From Ignavibacteria bacterium (GTDB taxonomy: Bacteria > Bacteroidota > Ignavibacteria > Kapaibacteriales > Kapaibacteriaceae), in the NCBI GenBank assembly GCA_016191145.1, contig JACPPD010000010.1:62001-126000 (forward strand): a stretch of DNA of 64,000 bases, written 5' to 3'. Every line of letters starts with the position of its first letter. The first letter of the stretch is position 1. Positions 25,909-50,716 of the stretch are shown one piece after another. The position numbers and the translations under genes were made by a program. The notes beneath the pieces were generated by a model. It was not told the origin of the DNA and searched no databases. It was given only the letters and a program-made list of their open reading frames with translations.

Positions 25909-27251
25909 GGTTCTCCATACAATCCGGTGGCAAATTCAACCAAGGTCCGTGCATCAAGATAGGCATACACGGCAGCGACGCGGTTGATACGTGCTGTTAT
26001 CAATTGATTGTTAGCAGTCTGGACGTCAAGTAGTGTTGCTCCCCCAACGTTAAATCGTTCCTGCATTGCATCCATGCTTGTTGTTGCTGATTTCACAGCT
26101 CGTTCAGTTATCGTTAAACCCTTTTCAGCCGAGGCCAGTGAGAGATAAGCATTACGAACACTTTGCCTTATTTGTTGCTGCAAACGTTCCACGTCGAGGT
26201 CGCGTTGCGTTTTAACTAACTTGGCATCTTCAATAGATTTATTTGTTCTGAATTGATCAAACAGGGGCAGTCTGAAGTTGAGACCCATGAACCATCGGCC
26301 TTGTGTATCAAAATTGGATATTTCAATGTAATTCCATGAATAACCGCCTACTGCAGAAAGCGTTGGGTAATACGTTGCCGAAGCGGCAGTAACACCAGCT
26401 TGCGCAGCGTTGGCGCGCACTTTAGAGGAAGCCACATCGGGACGTCTCTCCATAGCACGATCGACAGACATTTCTTCGGAGCCTATAAGCATGCGAAATG
26501 ACTCGACGTCGGCAACTGATACTTCCGACTCCACTGATCCTTCGTCAAATTCAGCAGACTGATTTGGATTCACGCTCATTGTAGTAAGTAGCGTGACCTT
26601 TGCCTTGTCGTGATCTATTTCTGCGCTCAACACAGATGTTTCCTGGTTAGCAACTTCTGTTTCCTGCGATAGAAGTTGTGTAATGGGCGCTTTGCCATTT
26701 TCATACAGAGCTTTAATTCTATCGTAAGTCGATCTGCTCAATGCAAGATTCTCCCTACGTGCAATAAGTACCTGAGCTGTTCGCAAAACTTCAAAGAACT
26801 GTCGTGTTATGTTATATGAAACGCTCAAGCGCTGATACCGAATGTCGTTCTCTGAGGCGTCGAGGTTCCCTTTGGCAACGTCATAATTGGACTCGCGAAG
26901 AAAGCCGTTAAAGATCGTCCAATTCAAAGTGCCGCTTAATGTATAATTATTTGGTATCGGGTCGCCCAAGACTGGTACACCATTGACATACGAAAATTGC
27001 CTTCTAAGATTTGTCAGTTGTCGGTTATATCCGGCGTTCAAATCTGCGCTCGGCAAAAAGGATCCGAATGCACTTGTCAAGCCCGCTGCGGCTGCCAGAG
27101 AACGTGCATTCACATCGCGTATATCAAAATTGCGTTCCATTGCAATAGAGATACAGTCTTTTAACGTGTATCGCTGAACAGCACCGCGTGTTTGAGTGAA
27201 TAGGGGAAGAGTATTTAACAAGCCCAGAGCAACCGCGACGAATAATCTCAT
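25905..27251 (-). CDS. TolC-family outer-membrane efflux channel
   Basis: A 448-residue outer-membrane factor with a short signal peptide (LFVAVALGLLNTLPLFTQ) and two outer-membrane efflux repeats: an N-terminal copy starting YTLKDCISIAMERNFDIRD and a C-terminal copy with RPDVASSKVRANAAQAGVTAA ... YYPTLSAVGGYSW and VGGATLLDVQTANNQLI. It is the first gene of the pump operon, with an exact TAnnTTTG box about 50 nt upstream. It is one of two TolC modules in the window; the other is fused to an RND permease. Confidence 0.93.
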   Translation of the reverse strand: MRLFVAVALGLLNTLPLFTQTRGAVQRYTLKDCISIAMERNFDIRDVNARSLAAAAGLTSAFGSFLPSADLNAGYNRQLTNLRRQFSYVNGVPVLGDPIPNNYTLSGTLNWTIFNGFLRESNYDVAKGNLDASENDIRYQRLSVSYNITRQFFEVLRTAQVLIARRENLALSRSTYDRIKALYENGKAPITQLLSQETEVANQETSVLSAEIDHDKAKVTLLTTMSVNPNQSAEFDEGSVESEVSVADVESFRMLIGSEEMSVDRAMERRPDVASSKVRANAAQAGVTAASATYYPTLSAVGGYSWNYIEISNFDTQGRWFMGLNFRLPLFDQFRTNKSIEDAKLVKTQRDLDVERLQQQIRQSVRNAYLSLASAEKGLTITERAVKSATTSMDAMQERFNVGGATLLDVQTANNQLITARINRVAAVYAYLDARTLVEFATGLYGEP

Positions 27252-43510: not shown

Positions 43511-44587
43511 ATGATGTCGAAACATGTTTTGAGAATCGTTATTGGAATTGCAGTTGTTGCAATAGGAATCGTTGCATGGGTAACGCTGCGCTCTCCAACT
43601 CCTGCTAACAAAGCGATGAATGCCGGAAAGAGGGCCACTCCAACAGTCAATGCTGTTGTGCTTGTCCCTCGCCCCTTTAAGGAATCGTTGACACTTACCG
43701 GAAGCATTCTTGCGGCTGAGCAAGTGGATGTCCGAAGTGAGGTTAATGGGAGGGTTACAGATATTAATTTTTCTGAAGGATCCTACGTCAAGAAGGGTCA
43801 GGTACTTGTTACACTCGACGATGCCGAGCTGAGGGCACGGTTGTCGCGCACAAAGGCACAACTGATTCTCGACAAGAACCGATTTGGCAGACAAGAGCAG
43901 CTAAAGAAAATCGATGGAGTGAGTGCCGAAGATTTCGAAGCGGCACAGGCACAGGTTTCGATTCGCGAAGCAGAGATTACTGAGCTCGAGACTCAAATAA
44001 GCAGAACTCGAATACGCGCTCCCTTTTCCGGAATGGTTGGGCTGAGAAATATTAGCGTGGGTGCAGTAATCTCGTCGCAAACACTGATAACAACGCTGGC
44101 TGACGTGAGCACGCTGAAACTTGAATTCAGCGCTCCAGAGAGGTTTGTAAGGGGCTTTGGCGTGGGCACCATTACAACATTTCGTGTTAAGGACAGGATG
44201 GGAAGCGATTCATTCCTGGCAAAGGTATATGCACTTGATCCTGTACTCGAAAAAGAAACCAGGTCGCTTAGGGTTAGAGCAAACGTGCTGAAAGGGATTC
44301 AATTCAATTCATTTTTGCGACCAGGCATGTTTGCAGAAGTAACAATGCAGCTCACGTCTGTGGATGACGCACTACTTGTGCCTAGTGAAGCTATTCAACC
44401 TGGGATGAGTGGAACGTCGGTGTTTGTGTTGAACGGAAATCGTGCCTCTGTTACTGAAGTTGAAATGGGGGGAAGAGATGAATCGTTTGTAAGATTATTA
44501 AAAGGTGTGAAAGCAGGCGATACTGTAGCCACTTCTGGACTGTTGATTCTCAAGGACGGTTTGCCAGTACACGTGAGACTGCAATGA
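43511..44587 (+). CDS. RND efflux periplasmic adaptor (membrane fusion protein)
   Basis: A 358-residue HlyD-type adaptor. The N-terminal anchor is a single hydrophobic helix (LRIVIGIAVVAIGIVAWVTL). The lipoyl halves are VDVRSEVNGRVTDINFSEGSYVKKGQVL and RIRAPFSGMVGLRNISVGAV, joined by a short alpha-hairpin (about residues 100-150). Beta-barrel and membrane-proximal domains follow (LRPGMFAEVTMQL, ALLVPSEAIQPG). The gene begins ATGATG, so either ATG may be used. It overlaps the permease gene by 4 nt and should dock to it and to the fused TolC module. Confidence 0.93.
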   Translation: MMSKHVLRIVIGIAVVAIGIVAWVTLRSPTPANKAMNAGKRATPTVNAVVLVPRPFKESLTLTGSILAAEQVDVRSEVNGRVTDINFSEGSYVKKGQVLVTLDDAELRARLSRTKAQLILDKNRFGRQEQLKKIDGVSAEDFEAAQAQVSIREAEITELETQISRTRIRAPFSGMVGLRNISVGAVISSQTLITTLADVSTLKLEFSAPERFVRGFGVGTITTFRVKDRMGSDSFLAKVYALDPVLEKETRSLRVRANVLKGIQFNSFLRPGMFAEVTMQLTSVDDALLVPSEAIQPGMSGTSVFVLNGNRASVTEVEMGGRDESFVRLLKGVKAGDTVATSGLLILKDGLPVHVRLQ

Positions 44588-47500
44588 ATCTAAGTATATT
44601 GACAATCCGTCGGCCCGTTCTCAGCATTGTTATCAGCATTCTCATTGTCCTGCTGGGCGTTGTCGGATTTCTGTTCCTCGGAGTCAGGCAGTTCCCCGAT
44701 GTAGACCCGCCCAACATTACCGTCACCACCACCTATACCGGCGCCAATGCAGACGTTGTTGAATCGCAGATAACTGAGCCACTCGAAGAAAGCATCAATG
44801 GCATTGCCGGCATACGGTCACTGACGTCGCAGTCCAGCGACGGACGCTCTCAAATAACAGTTGAGTTCGAACTTGGCGAAGATTTAGAAACTGCGGCAAA
44901 TGATGTGCGCGACCGCGTGGAACGTGCTAAGCGTCTGCTGCCGCCCGATGTCGATCCACCCGTGGTTGCGAAAGCAGACGCTAACAGTCAGGCAATTCTT
45001 GTAATGACTGTACAAAGCACCAAGCGAAGGCTAAACGACCTGAGTGCATTTGGTTCCAATGTCTTAAAAGAACGTTTGCAAACAATTCCCGGCGTTGGTG
45101 CAATTACCATTTGGGGCGAGCGCAAATATTCAATGCGTATAGTATTGGACCCGGATAGACTTTCGGCATACGGGCTAACAACATCAGATATTCGAACGAT
45201 ACTTTCAAGGGAAAACATCGAGCTGCCTGCCGGCAGACTCGAAGGAGTTTCGACAGAGCTTACGTTGAGAACGCTGGGAAGGCTCACTACGGTCGAAGAA
45301 TTTGCAAACGTGATCCTCCGTTCGTCAGCAGGCGTTACGGTAAGAATCAAGGATGTTGCGCGCGTATATCTAGGCGCTGAAAATGAGCGAACTATTCTGA
45401 AGCGCAATGGCATTCAAATGATCGGCTTGGCAATTTCTCCTCAGCCTGGCGCAAACCAAGTTGAAATTGCCGATGAGTTTTATAGACGATATGATATATT
45501 AAAAAAGTTTACACCAAAGGATGTTGTACTTGATATCGCCTTCGATAACACGACATTTATACGCAGGGCCATTCGGGAAGTCGAGGAGACACTTGCTATC
45601 GCCTTTAGTCTTGTGGTTCTCATCATTTTTATCTTTCTCAGGTCATGGCGTGCAACTCTCATTCCCGTCATAGCCATCCCCGTCTCACTCGTCAGCGGTT
45701 TTTTCTTCATGTGGATCAGTGGTTTTTCCATCAACATCCTTACTCTTCTGGGTATTGTTCTTGCAACGGGCTTAGTGGTAGACGACGCAATTGTAGTGAT
45801 GGAAAACATCTTTCGAAGGATTGAACTGGGTGAGACGCCACGAGAGGCTGGAGAGAAAGGTTCCACTGAAATTTACTTTGCAATTGTTTCAACCACTCTT
45901 ACGCTGGCAATTGTTTTTATTCCCATCATTTTTCTTCCGGGTCTTACAGGCAGGCTGTTCAGGGAATTCGGACTTGTTGTTGCGTGCACAGTTCTTGTGA
46001 GCGCATTTGTCTCACTTACGCTTACGCCAATGATGAGTTCGCGTCTCTTGCACCGTGTTCACGGTCATGAGAACTGGCTCATGCGATCTACTGAACCGTT
46101 TTTTCAATGGTTGAACAAAAAGTACGAGAGCATGTTAAACAGCATGCTATCACGAACCTGGCTTGCCCCCTCAATAATGATTGCATCAGTAATTGTTATC
46201 GTGCTGGTTGGCGCCAGACTAAAAACAGAACTTGCACCGCTCGAAGACAGAAGTGTGCTTACGTTCAGTGTTACATCACCCGAGGGCACAACGTTCGACC
46301 GCATGGATGTGTACATGGACTCGCTTCAGGCACGTGTATCGAGGGCAGCTCCGGAAGCTCGATTTATTCTCACGGTTACGTCGCCGTCCTTTTTCGGAGG
46401 GGGCAACAACACGGGCTTTTCCAGAACAATTCTTGTCGACCCCGAAGAGCGTAGTCGTTCGCAGATGCAGATCGCCGATGTTCTTGGAGCTATGTTTCGC
46501 GATGCAACAGAAGCCCGCACAGTTGTGATCCAGGAGCAGACAATATCGACGGGACAACGTTCCGGCTTGCCAGTTCAATACGTAATTCTTGCATCAACAC
46601 TCGACGAATTGAGAGAGATATTACCAAAATTTATTGATCGGGCTGAGCAGGACCCGACATTCACGGTTATTGATGTAAATCTGAAATTCACTAAACCAGA
46701 GGTTACGATTTCAATTGATAGAACACGAGCAAGGGAACTAGGTGTTAGCGTGGCTGATATTGCCGACGTATTGCAGGCAGGTTTCGCTGGACAACGGTAT
46801 GGGTACTTCACACGCGAAGGCAAGCAGTACCAGGTAATTGGAGACATAGAGCGGGCTGATCGCAGTACGCCAGATCGGTTGTTAGATCTTGGTGTGCGCA
46901 CGTCGGAAGGCACCATTGTCCCGCTTGTGAATTTCGTTACACTAACTGAGCGCAGCACACCGCCCGCGCTGTTCAGGTACAACAGAAATGTTGCAGCTAC
47001 TGTTTCAGCAGGGCTTGCTCCCGGAGCAACTATTGGCGACGGAATCAAATCAATGGATGCTATTGCATCAAATGTTTTGGACGAGCGATACTCCACAACG
47101 CTTTCTGGCGCTTCGCGCGATTTTGCCGAAAGTTCTTCGAGTCTGCTCTATGCATTCCTCCTTGCACTTGCCTTTGTATATCTCGTCCTGGCTGCGCAGT
47201 TCGAAAGCTTTGTGGATCCACTGACCATCATGCTTACTGTGCCGCTGGCATTGTCCGGTGGAGTTATATCGCTTTGGATCGCAGGACAGACACTGAACAT
47301 ATTTTCTGAAATCGGCGCAATTGTATTAATTGGATTAGTTACAAAAAACGGAATTCTGATTGTTGAGTTTGCCAACAAACTAGGTGAACAGGGCCATACA
47401 ACTGTTGAAGCTGCATCGAAAGCAGCCGTTACCAGATTCAGACCGATTTTGATGACGTCGCTTTCGGCAATGTTGGGTGCACTCCCGATTGCGTTGTCTC

Positions 47501-48963
47501 TCGGGGCCTCGTCGGGCAGCAGAACGGGACTTGGAGTTGTTGTTGTAGGTGGTGTATTGCTGGCAACATTTCTGACTCTCTTTGTAATTCCGAGTGTTTA
47601 TATTCTTCTATCGAAACTGAAGCGACGTAGCATCGTTGCAAAAGCAATAATCGTTTTAGTGATAATGATACCTGCTCTCCAAATATCGGCGCAACAGCCA
47701 ACTCAACAGAATGCACCGAGCCGCATAACATTACGGGAGGCAATTAGCATCGCTCTTCAGCGGAATTTTCAAATTCAGCAGTCAGTTCAGGACTCTTTGC
47801 TTGCTGAGAATGCCGGGAAAACGGCCGTTGTTGGCTTTCTGCCCACTTTCGACGTAACGGCAGGCGCTTCCGTGTCGAGTACAGACATCGTTCAAAACTT
47901 CGCAGATGGAAGAACAATCACGCGTCCGTCTGCAAGCGGCACAAACGTCAATGCCAATGCAACAATGGAGTGGACGGTATTTGACGGCATGAAAATGTTC
48001 GCAAGTGCCGACAAAGCGGGTGCATTGAGGGCAGCAGGGCTTCAGCGTGTCCGCGCTGAAATGAATACGGTTGTCGCAGATGTTATAACAGCATTTAATG
48101 CATTGGTAGCTATTCAGACATTCCGCGTAACCGTAGACAGCGCACTGGCTTTGGCAGAGGAGCGATACCGGCTTGAAAAGCAGCGTCACGAAGTAGGAAT
48201 TGCGTCCGGTGTCGAAAGTGCACAGGCTATGATAGATTTTAACAGTCAGAAGGCACTGGCAATTCGTATACAGTCGGATGAGAAAAATGCCTCAAGTGCA
48301 TTGCAAACAATTCTTGGATATTATCCATCGGGATTAACGGTTGCTGATACTGTGAATTCCGTTATGGACGTTCCCACGCGTGCCACTCTGCTTGAAAGCG
48401 TAGATAAAAATAATCCCGACCTGCTTGCCGCAATGCGAGGACTCGATGGCGCATCGGCGCATGTGAGGGAACTGGCGTCGACAATATTTCCAATTATCGA
48501 TATCAGAGCAGGGTACACATTCAATAGGTCAACCTCGGAGGCGGGATTTTTTCTCGTAAATCAGGCGAACACATGGTTGGTTGGATCTGCATTGCAATGG
48601 AATATTTTTAACGGTACATCAGACAAGCTTGCCAGAGAGGCGGCTCTTATCCAAGAACAAAAAAATAAAATTAGTATAGACGCGCTTCGCAGCGAAATTG
48701 CAGGCCGCGTCGACAGAACATATCGGCAGTTTGAACTGGCTGCACAGTTGGTTGAAATAGAGCGTTCATCGTATGATGCCGCACAAAGCAATGCCAATGT
48801 TGCATTGGAAAAACTGCGCGTTGGAAGCGTTACGCCACTGGAAGTTAGACAGACATTCCTTACCCTACTCGAAGTTGGAGAGCGCGTAGCTCAGCTCGAA
48901 TATGAGCGACGTCTTGCAGCAACAGAATTGTTACGGTTGTCCGGTAACCTGATTCAACAATGA
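44584..48963 (+). CDS. RND (HAE1/AcrB-type) efflux permease fused to a TolC-type outer-membrane channel
   Basis: A single 1,459-residue chain. Residues 1 to about 1012 are a complete RND permease: FLGVRQFPDVDPPNITVTT at the N-terminus, two porter domains, and the proton-relay motif VVDDAIVVMENIFRR near residue 400. The end of TM12 (TLFVIPSVYILLSKLKRR) is normal for the family. Then comes a segment that looks like a TolC signal peptide (basic start, IIVLVIMIPA core, ISAQQ end, about 1015-1037) and a full TolC-type channel of about 420 residues (SRITLREAISIALQRNFQIQ ... VGSVTPLEVRQTFLTLLEVG). No stop separates the modules. The internal segment would act as a thirteenth helix placing the channel in the periplasm, or be cut by signal peptidase (inference). 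Confidence 0.9.
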   Translation: MNLSILTIRRPVLSIVISILIVLLGVVGFLFLGVRQFPDVDPPNITVTTTYTGANADVVESQITEPLEESINGIAGIRSLTSQSSDGRSQITVEFELGEDLETAANDVRDRVERAKRLLPPDVDPPVVAKADANSQAILVMTVQSTKRRLNDLSAFGSNVLKERLQTIPGVGAITIWGERKYSMRIVLDPDRLSAYGLTTSDIRTILSRENIELPAGRLEGVSTELTLRTLGRLTTVEEFANVILRSSAGVTVRIKDVARVYLGAENERTILKRNGIQMIGLAISPQPGANQVEIADEFYRRYDILKKFTPKDVVLDIAFDNTTFIRRAIREVEETLAIAFSLVVLIIFIFLRSWRATLIPVIAIPVSLVSGFFFMWISGFSINILTLLGIVLATGLVVDDAIVVMENIFRRIELGETPREAGEKGSTEIYFAIVSTTLTLAIVFIPIIFLPGLTGRLFREFGLVVACTVLVSAFVSLTLTPMMSSRLLHRVHGHENWLMRSTEPFFQWLNKKYESMLNSMLSRTWLAPSIMIASVIVIVLVGARLKTELAPLEDRSVLTFSVTSPEGTTFDRMDVYMDSLQARVSRAAPEARFILTVTSPSFFGGGNNTGFSRTILVDPEERSRSQMQIADVLGAMFRDATEARTVVIQEQTISTGQRSGLPVQYVILASTLDELREILPKFIDRAEQDPTFTVIDVNLKFTKPEVTISIDRTRARELGVSVADIADVLQAGFAGQRYGYFTREGKQYQVIGDIERADRSTPDRLLDLGVRTSEGTIVPLVNFVTLTERSTPPALFRYNRNVAATVSAGLAPGATIGDGIKSMDAIASNVLDERYSTTLSGASRDFAESSSSLLYAFLLALAFVYLVLAAQFESFVDPLTIMLTVPLALSGGVISLWIAGQTLNIFSEIGAIVLIGLVTKNGILIVEFANKLGEQGHTTVEAASKAAVTRFRPILMTSLSAMLGALPIALSLGASSGSRTGLGVVVVGGVLLATFLTLFVIPSVYILLSKLKRRSIVAKAIIVLVIMIPALQISAQQPTQQNAPSRITLREAISIALQRNFQIQQSVQDSLLAENAGKTAVVGFLPTFDVTAGASVSSTDIVQNFADGRTITRPSASGTNVNANATMEWTVFDGMKMFASADKAGALRAAGLQRVRAEMNTVVADVITAFNALVAIQTFRVTVDSALALAEERYRLEKQRHEVGIASGVESAQAMIDFNSQKALAIRIQSDEKNASSALQTILGYYPSGLTVADTVNSVMDVPTRATLLESVDKNNPDLLAAMRGLDGASAHVRELASTIFPIIDIRAGYTFNRSTSEAGFFLVNQANTWLVGSALQWNIFNGTSDKLAREAALIQEQKNKISIDALRSEIAGRVDRTYRQFELAAQLVEIERSSYDAAQSNANVALEKLRVGSVTPLEVRQTFLTLLEVGERVAQLEYERRLAATELLRLSGNLIQQ

Positions 48964-48985
48964 TTGAGTAGTATCCGGGACTTGA
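48773..48985 (+). repeat. Original copy of a 213-bp duplication (3' end of the RND-TolC gene)
   Basis: This stretch, covering the last 63 codons, the stop and 22 nt beyond, aligns without gaps to 50449-50661. I count about 21 mismatches, i.e. about 90% identity by eye. Weaker similarity continues about 20 nt further. Confidence 0.85.
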
Positions 48986-49045
48986 TTTCGTCGGTTCGTG
49001 TATGTGCGGAGAGCAATACTTTGCCTCTGAGAATGGGGCTTGGCG

Positions 49046-50293
49046 TCACACAACATCTGTACCATGCTCAGTTTCCTCACCTTCGTCAATTAAAGCAGAC
49101 GGAAGTTGCTTTGAGGCTTTAACACCCAGTTTCTTAAGTTGTTCGACTTTTCCTACGAGGTTCCCCGAACCGGTTGAGAGCTTCTTCGTTGCATCGATAT
49201 GTGACTTGCGTGCCTTTTCAAGGTATTCCCCAACGGCAGAAAGATCTTGGGTGAATCCGACGAATTTGTCATAGAGATTGCCTGCTTGTCGGGCAATCTC
49301 TATTGCGTTTTTATTCTGCATTTCGATCTTCCACATGCTGGCAATAGTCTTTAGAGTTGCAAGCAGCGTTGATGGACTCACAATTATTATCTTTTTGCTC
49401 CAGGCATTGTTAAAGAGATTGGGATCTTCACGTAAAGTGATCGAGAAGACGGGTTCAACTGCGATAAATAGTAAGACAAAGTCGGGAGCAATCATGCCTT
49501 GAGCAGTTTCGTACTTCTTCTCACTTAGCGACTTTATGTGGTTGTTGACAGATGCGATATGACGCTTCATTGCTTCAACGCGCTCTGCACTCCCATCTTC
49601 GGAGGATGAATACTGTTCGTATGCAGTTAGTGATACCTTTGAATCGATAATGATGTTCTTGTTGTCTGGAAGGTGGACGATCACATCGGGTCGAATTTCG
49701 ACGCCATCCTCATTCTTTGAAGTGTATTGAGTTTCATAGTTCTCGGGCTCTGTTAGCCCGCTGGCTTCGAGAACCCGTTCGAGAATAATTTCACCCCAGT
49801 CTCCCTGCTGCTTGGAGTCGCCCTTGAGCGCTTTGGTAAGGTTGTTTGCTTCCATCGATACCTGACTATTCAGGTCTGTGAGCTGGCGGATTTTCTCCAT
49901 AAGTAATGTATGCTGAGACAGGGCATCACCTTGGCTCCGTTCAACTCTGTCTTGAAATTCCTTCACCCGTTCCTTGAAGGGCTTGAGAACCTCGTCCAAT
50001 ACTGTTTTCTGCTGTTCGCCTAAAACTTTACTTTGTTCAACCCAGCCACGGTTTGATATATCCGTGAAAGCCTTCTCCATTTCGTCGCGCATGGACGACC
50101 GTTCTGACTCAAGCTTGGCAATCGACTCGCGAACGATATCTACCTCCTTTAATGATGCAGCCAGATTCGCGGATAACGTCATGATTTGTGCGTCCTTTTC
50201 GTCGACAGATTTGGCTGCACGTCTATGCCCAACAAAGAGACCGATAGCGAAAGCTGCAAAAGCCGCTAGAAAGATGATGATGATGATGTCCAT
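49046..50293 (-). CDS. rmuC: DNA recombination protein RmuC
   Basis: A 415-residue protein with an N-terminal membrane helix (MDIIIIIFLAAFAAFAIGLFVG), a coiled coil (about residues 30-130, Lys/Glu-rich) and the RmuC nuclease-like domain: TKALKGDSKQQGDWGEIILERVLEASGL, KNIIIDSKVSLTAYEQY and IIVSPSTLLATLKTIASMWK. RmuC limits inversions and other rearrangements at short inverted repeats. The gene is convergent with the RND-TolC gene and bracketed by the two copies of the 213-bp duplication. Confidence 0.95.
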   Translation of the reverse strand: MDIIIIIFLAAFAAFAIGLFVGHRRAAKSVDEKDAQIMTLSANLAASLKEVDIVRESIAKLESERSSMRDEMEKAFTDISNRGWVEQSKVLGEQQKTVLDEVLKPFKERVKEFQDRVERSQGDALSQHTLLMEKIRQLTDLNSQVSMEANNLTKALKGDSKQQGDWGEIILERVLEASGLTEPENYETQYTSKNEDGVEIRPDVIVHLPDNKNIIIDSKVSLTAYEQYSSSEDGSAERVEAMKRHIASVNNHIKSLSEKKYETAQGMIAPDFVLLFIAVEPVFSITLREDPNLFNNAWSKKIIIVSPSTLLATLKTIASMWKIEMQNKNAIEIARQAGNLYDKFVGFTQDLSAVGEYLEKARKSHIDATKKLSTGSGNLVGKVEQLKKLGVKASKQLPSALIDEGEETEHGTDVV

Positions 50294-50448: not shown

Positions 50449-50661
50449 ATGATGCCGCACAAAGCAATGCCAATGTTGCATTGGAAAATCTGCGCGTTGG
50501 AAGTGTTACTCCAATGGAGGTTCGACAGACATTGCTCACCCTACTCGAAGTTGGAGAGCGAGCAGTTCAGCTCAAATATGAGCGACGTTTTGCAGCAACA
50601 GAATTGTTGCGTTTATCAGGTAGCCTAATTCAACAATGATTGAGTAGTATCTGGAACTTGA
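50449..50661 (+). pseudogene. Truncated relic of a TolC gene end
   Basis: A decayed copy of the 3' end of the RND-TolC gene, including its stop codon (50637-50639). It encodes DAAQSNANVALENLRVGSVT ... LLRLSGSLIQQ, compared with DAAQSNANVALEKLRVGSVT ... LLRLSGNLIQQ in the intact gene. The frame is still open, and changes are largely synonymous or conservative, but no start, signal peptide or barrel remains. It lies between the rmuC start and a lipoprotein gene. The rest of the 50294-50716 gap shows no other gene; there is a short palindrome (ACGACTTGTCGT) near 50363. Confidence 0.8.
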
Positions 50662-50716
50662 ATATTGCAGTTCCTGTATATGCATTGTGTTTGTTTCATT
50701 TTCTGAGTGATCTATT

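Follow-up and report, generated by a model that had tools for sequence, protein, structure and literature searches.

An RND permease and a TolC-like channel encoded as one chain in Kapaibacteriaceae, most likely a polyprotein cut into two pump parts

Introduction

Can the inner- and outer-membrane ends of an efflux pump be translated as one chain, and would such a chain then stay whole? The question is raised by a locus in the window, that is, the whole stretch of 64,000 nucleotides of Ignavibacteria bacterium DNA that was analysed. A preliminary description had read a permease of the RND type and a TolC channel as one continuous chain at 44584-48963, and had offered two outcomes for it, a polyprotein cut by signal peptidase or a permanent tether between the two membranes. 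In a limited open-access search of the literature, no discussion of natural fusions of this kind between RND permeases and outer membrane factors (OMF) was found.

Domain content of the fused gene

The locus comprises an adaptor gene and the fused gene, the latter divided into three parts:

43511-44587, plus strand: MFP/HlyD periplasmic adaptor gene (TIGR01730 RND_mfp, 231.6 bits, cut-off 94.9)
44584-47625, plus strand: RND permease part, residues 1-1014 (Pfam ACR_tran over residues 6-1009), ending at the basic patch SKLKR after TM12
47626-47691, plus strand: joint, an internal signal-peptide-like segment, residues 1015-1036 (by hydropathy and site rule; equivalent in all 13 fused genomes)
47692-48963, plus strand: TolC-like outer membrane channel, residues 1037-1459 and stop (Pfam OEP, AF2 model, match to 1ek9)

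The fused gene is a single ATG-initiated frame of 1459 codons on the plus strand (44584-48963), closed by TGA and free of internal stops, whose ATG overlaps the 3' end of the adaptor gene by 4 bp (ATGA). It encodes, in this order, a full AcrB-like RND permease, the signal-peptide-like joint and a full TolC-fold channel. The permease is a member of the RND superfamily by its full-length match to ACR_tran (PF00873; 965 bits, profile positions 4-1020 of 1021), while its best NCBIfam match, RND_permease_2 (NF033617), stays below the family cut-off (1044.9 bits against 1250), as do its scores with the HAE1 family TIGR00915 (753.4 against 940.35) and the CusA/CzcA heavy-metal family TIGR00914 (396.6 against 701.45). 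The closest solved chains are MdtB, MexB, CmeB and AcrB. The permease is nearest to the HAE1 branch and, since its scores lie under the cut-offs of TIGR00915 and NF033617, "HAE1-branch" is used here for a resemblance, not as a filing. As the permease also lies under the CusA/CzcA cut-off, the fusion stands in a multidrug-type branch and is parallel to the metal-type RND-TolC fusions; the pump is presumably of the drug type.

The channel part is identified as an outer membrane factor by two stretches of OEP (PF02321; the best at residues 1268-1454, 131.6 bits) and by the TolC protomer layout of an AF2 model; with 112.1 bits against a cut-off of 225.15, it falls outside TIGR01844 (type I secretion TolC). 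The model (residues 1008-1459, pLDDT 78.8 overall) was built on an alignment of the window channel with 32 other channels, partly drawn from standalone TolC loci, and shows H1, H2, two strands, a 67-residue H3, H4, H5, H6, two strands, H7 and H8. The four long beta-strands and the helices H1-H8 make up a complete TolC protomer layout, and the best PDB match is E. coli TolC (1ek9, TM 0.75/0.79). Helix H1 starts at residue 1048, 11 residues past the predicted cut site. The continuous chain of the preliminary description is thus borne out by the open frame, the ACR_tran and OEP matches and the TolC-fold model, and its account of the anatomy, its coordinates, its argument on topology and the cut that it proposed between ISA and QQ were all judged right.

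Further tolC-related sequence is present in the window. A second gene of the TolC family, at about 26010-27191 on the minus strand, shares 25% identity with the channel part of the fused gene, and a fragment lies downstream of the fused gene:

50449-50683, plus strand: second, truncated tolC 3' end with its 3' flank, not a working gene (235 bp, 88% identical to 48773-49007; 63-residue match at 86%)

These 235-bp direct repeats of the tolC 3' end flank an rmuC gene on the reverse strand (49046-50293). The genome G001 is colinear with both flanks of the rmuC insert and lacks the insert itself, and rmuC was not found in that genome, which is 80% complete. The insert has the appearance of having integrated through a single crossover at the end of tolC.

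The joint between permease and channel

Signal-peptide calls were made from hydropathy and a site rule, with 79 standalone TolC loci serving as controls. The joint in the window reads ...YILLSKLKR-RSIVAKAIIVLVIMIPALQISA up to the predicted signal peptidase I (SPase I) site and QQPTQQNAPSR-ITLREA after it. Its hydrophobic core is IIVLVIMIPA (residues 1022-1031; maximal 10-residue Kyte-Doolittle mean 3.23), and the predicted site, after residue 1036, is of the AXA type followed by Gln. By rule, the window and its relatives display the features of an SPase I substrate, namely a basic n-region, a hydrophobic core and small residues at -3 and -1. In all fused chains the permease ends with the TM12 motif P[SA][LV]Y and then a basic patch, S[KR]xKR, from which 25-47 variable residues lead to TolC H1 in the 13 fused copies, containing the core (best 10-residue mean 2.6-3.4) and the small -3/-1 site. 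The core and an SPase I-type site stand immediately before H1 in 13/13 fused orthologues; one of them, G013, has Met at -3 (MRS, then Q).

In Bacteroidetes, most substrates of signal peptidase I expose a Gln at +1, which is then cyclised (the Q-rule, PMC5837995). A Gln at +1 is found in 12 of the 13 fused joints, the exception being G003 (AEA, then RD), and the rough chance of finding it in 9/10 joint lineages is 1.5e-4 when six candidate sites are allowed in each. By a crude estimate, the share of Q-rule sites in the window genome is 14/63 when best sites are counted and 22/63 when any site counts, and the same genome encodes two SPase I-like proteins and a glutaminyl cyclase (298 bits). A basic patch and a hydrophobic stretch, taken alone, would fit an uncut TM13 equally well. 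Because all 79 of the standalone Bacteroidota TolCs examined show [AGS]Q just before H1, the joint appears to be a complete TolC signal peptide that has been retained inside a longer chain.

In pairs of close species, identity is 88-98% at the permease end and 76-93% in the TolC part but only 39-64% in the joint; the joint sequence is thus nearly free to evolve while its frame and signal properties persist. This pattern also bears on the possibility that TolC is translated on its own, through internal initiation or reinitiation, the continuous frame being incidental. GTG codons just upstream of the basic patch in many relatives, and an ATG there in G010, would suit such a mechanism. However, in the window, G013 and G019 the stretch that leads from TM12 to the hydrophobic core contains no in-frame ATG, GTG or TTG, so that separate initiation is unlikely in these three, and the joint, fast-evolving as it is, has changed its length across 13 species in-frame only; overall, this explanation is quite improbable.

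Conservation among relatives and evolutionary history

Of 23 genomes of the same GTDB family, 13 are fused, as confirmed by direct translation (G000, the genome of the window, G002, G003, G008, G009, G010, G013, G015, G016, G017, G018, G019 and G021). The other twelve carry the same uninterrupted in-frame fusion with the same joint, and full-length matches are 58-64% identical. The copy in G018 lacks the 5' end of the permease, that in G017 lacks the last TolC residues at a contig end, and those in G010 and G021 were each joined from two overlapping contigs (overlaps of 5 residues and of 124/124 identical, respectively). The nearest relative, G001 (TolC 91%), has no sequence over the joint: a contig scan returned a single close record, L046 (MAG SW_29, the same genome), whose contig begins past the joint, the other 79 loci being standalone TolCs. 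Split pumps of the same clade are present in G004, G005, G012, G014 and G022, where the two genes overlap or adjoin each other and differ in frame; G020, partly masked in sequence, appears split as well, and G006 is split with a permease from outside the clade.

A missed stop or frameshift in sequencing or assembly might have joined two genes, and the five split pumps, which lie one indel short of a fusion, are in keeping with this. Against it, twelve other genomes are fused in frame at this very joint, so that the fusion is genuine and an error extremely improbable. Conservation of the joint across genomes, which the preliminary description had proposed as a check, was thus found, and close relatives are not all of the two-gene type, which it had named as refuting: some are split (G004, G005), most of the family is not. 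By sequence, 13 genomes share an RND-OMF polyprotein architecture, in the sense of a single frame that holds permease, OMF and an internal export signal and is conserved among species. Outside the family, no fusion of the window pump was detected among 123 genomes of the order, 294 of the class and 395 of the phylum (overlapping samples). Long frames in other families (1486-1563 aa), considered as independent fusions, were rejected, as direct translation resolved each into two genes, permease and OMF, that share a frame but are separated by a stop.

The permease tree and the TolC tree each require exactly three changes between fused and split labels, all forced by well-supported branches. Since the outgroup permeases are all split, the shortest account on these trees is that the genes fused once, at the root of the clade, and came apart again twice (G004 with G005; G012 with G014 and G022), the alternative being many independent fusions. 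A single gain without loss, with all fused rows in one clade, was rejected (p-AU 9.4e-05), and so was a single fission, with all split rows in one clade (p-AU 1.1e-04). After both fissions, the free-standing TolCs begin with a start codon and a signal peptide of their own. The locus is syntenic: whether fused or split, most genomes in which the contig extends far enough have a fumarase gene downstream. In G004 and G005 (L140, L141), extra genes are found between adaptor and permease: both genomes have an ORF that by eye resembles PIG-L/ThuA, and G004 has a further one resembling sodium-solute symporters, so the operon has opened in the lineage that also lost the fusion.

Probable processing of the chain and geometry of the pump

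The chain is most likely a polyprotein that is cut into two normal parts of an ordinary tripartite pump, a reading to which we give a probability of about 85%. The 12-TM permease would insert into the inner membrane so that its C-terminus faces the cytoplasm, and the basic patch after TM12 (SKLKRR) would double as the n-region of the internal signal peptide, whose hydrophobic stretch would re-enter the translocon as TM13 and export the TolC part. Signal peptidase I would then cut behind ISA, following residue 1036, the Gln thus exposed at the N-terminus would probably be cyclised, and the freed TolC part would trimerise and enter the outer membrane, a short extra C-terminal TM helix being left on the permease. 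The mature pump would be an ordinary tripartite assembly with the adaptor encoded at 43511-44587, its permease and channel supplied 1:1 from one chain.

The other outcome is that the chain stays uncut as a permanent inner-to-outer membrane tether, with the permease trimer covalently joined to the TolC trimer. The single continuous frame, the 1:1 match of RND and TolC trimers and a topology that allows a TM13 would all agree with this arrangement. The geometry, however, does not. The periplasmic part of AcrB is about 70 Å tall. From the predicted end of TM13 to H1 there are only 2-11 residues: the predicted cut site is 11 aa from H1 in the window and 2 aa in 7/13 fused copies, corresponding, at 3.6 Å per residue, to maximal reaches of about 40 Å and 7 Å. 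In outer membrane factors, the helices at the equator are H1 and H5 (PMC8277102), and H1 thus sits about 54 Å above the channel's own periplasmic tip in the model (36 residues of H4 from tip to equator, at 1.5 Å per residue). The TolC tip, in turn, meets AcrA tip to tip, above AcrB (PMC5404916). On the model, an uncut chain could not span this distance without unfolding of the channel start or a different pump architecture, and the tether is unlikely because the linker between cut site and H1 is too short for the assembled tripartite pump. The SPase I/Q-rule site kept in 12/13 joints and the two reversions to separate genes also speak against it. The tether is very improbable, and the same holds for a pump that escapes cutting at least partly and works across the envelope as a covalently tethered machine, with a geometry unlike that of AcrAB-TolC. 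Thus, of the two outcomes originally offered, the evidence favours the cut polyprotein by a wide margin over the permanent tether.

Parallel fusions and related systems

A similar architecture is already known in the CusA/CzcA-type (HME) RND-TolC fusions of Bacteroidota, which, like the window gene, join a 12-TM permease, an internal signal-like segment and an OMF in one chain, but whose permease belongs to the metal-type branch. The window gene is the multidrug-branch counterpart of that architecture. In 18 joints of CusA/CzcA-type fusions from the same and related genomes, the ends are mostly of the AXA type, with Q next in 13/18; the earlier expectation that fusions are commoner on this side than on the HAE1 side also holds in the present sample. 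The two-gene HAE1-branch pumps of other families in the order and class have a related permease (50-60% identity), and the OMF gene lies directly downstream in most pairs read, but, unlike in the window, the genes are separate, all those directly translated being split, including apparent frames of about 1500 aa.

A separate HAE1-NodT fusion (P0002) is present in G015 and G018 (L138, 1709-6223, minus strand; L139, 1686-6233, plus strand), and its two parts exceed their family cut-offs, with 1160.7 bits for the AcrB-type permease (TIGR00915) and 344.3 bits for the NodT channel (TIGR01845). Like the window gene, it encodes a single chain of RND permease and OMF whose joint carries an export signal; in contrast to the window gene, the signal is one for signal peptidase II and the channel a lipoprotein. 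The joint, GLQSC-KVGPDYVRP, contains a lipobox-like Cys that makes sense only with cutting by signal peptidase II, so processing by this enzyme is predicted. A relative of this fusion in G002 (permease 67% identity) appears split. Taken together, the window, CusA/CzcA-type and HAE1-NodT joints indicate that three kinds of RND-OMF fusion each retain a signal for export and cutting. A comparable order, from polytopic membrane protein through internal signal peptide to exported protein, with maturation by cleavage, is found in the cytochrome b/c1 polyprotein FbcH of Bradyrhizobium japonicum, although FbcH belongs to a respiratory complex and its product is not an outer membrane protein.

Conclusions

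Collectively, these data provide a naturally occurring and conserved example of a multidrug-type pump whose inner-membrane and outer-membrane ends arise together, by translation of a single chain. Database entries of about 1450 aa named "efflux RND transporter" probably represent two mature proteins each, and the 13 fused genomes, with the two re-split lineages, provide a comparative set for the processing of a bacterial membrane polyprotein by signal peptidase.
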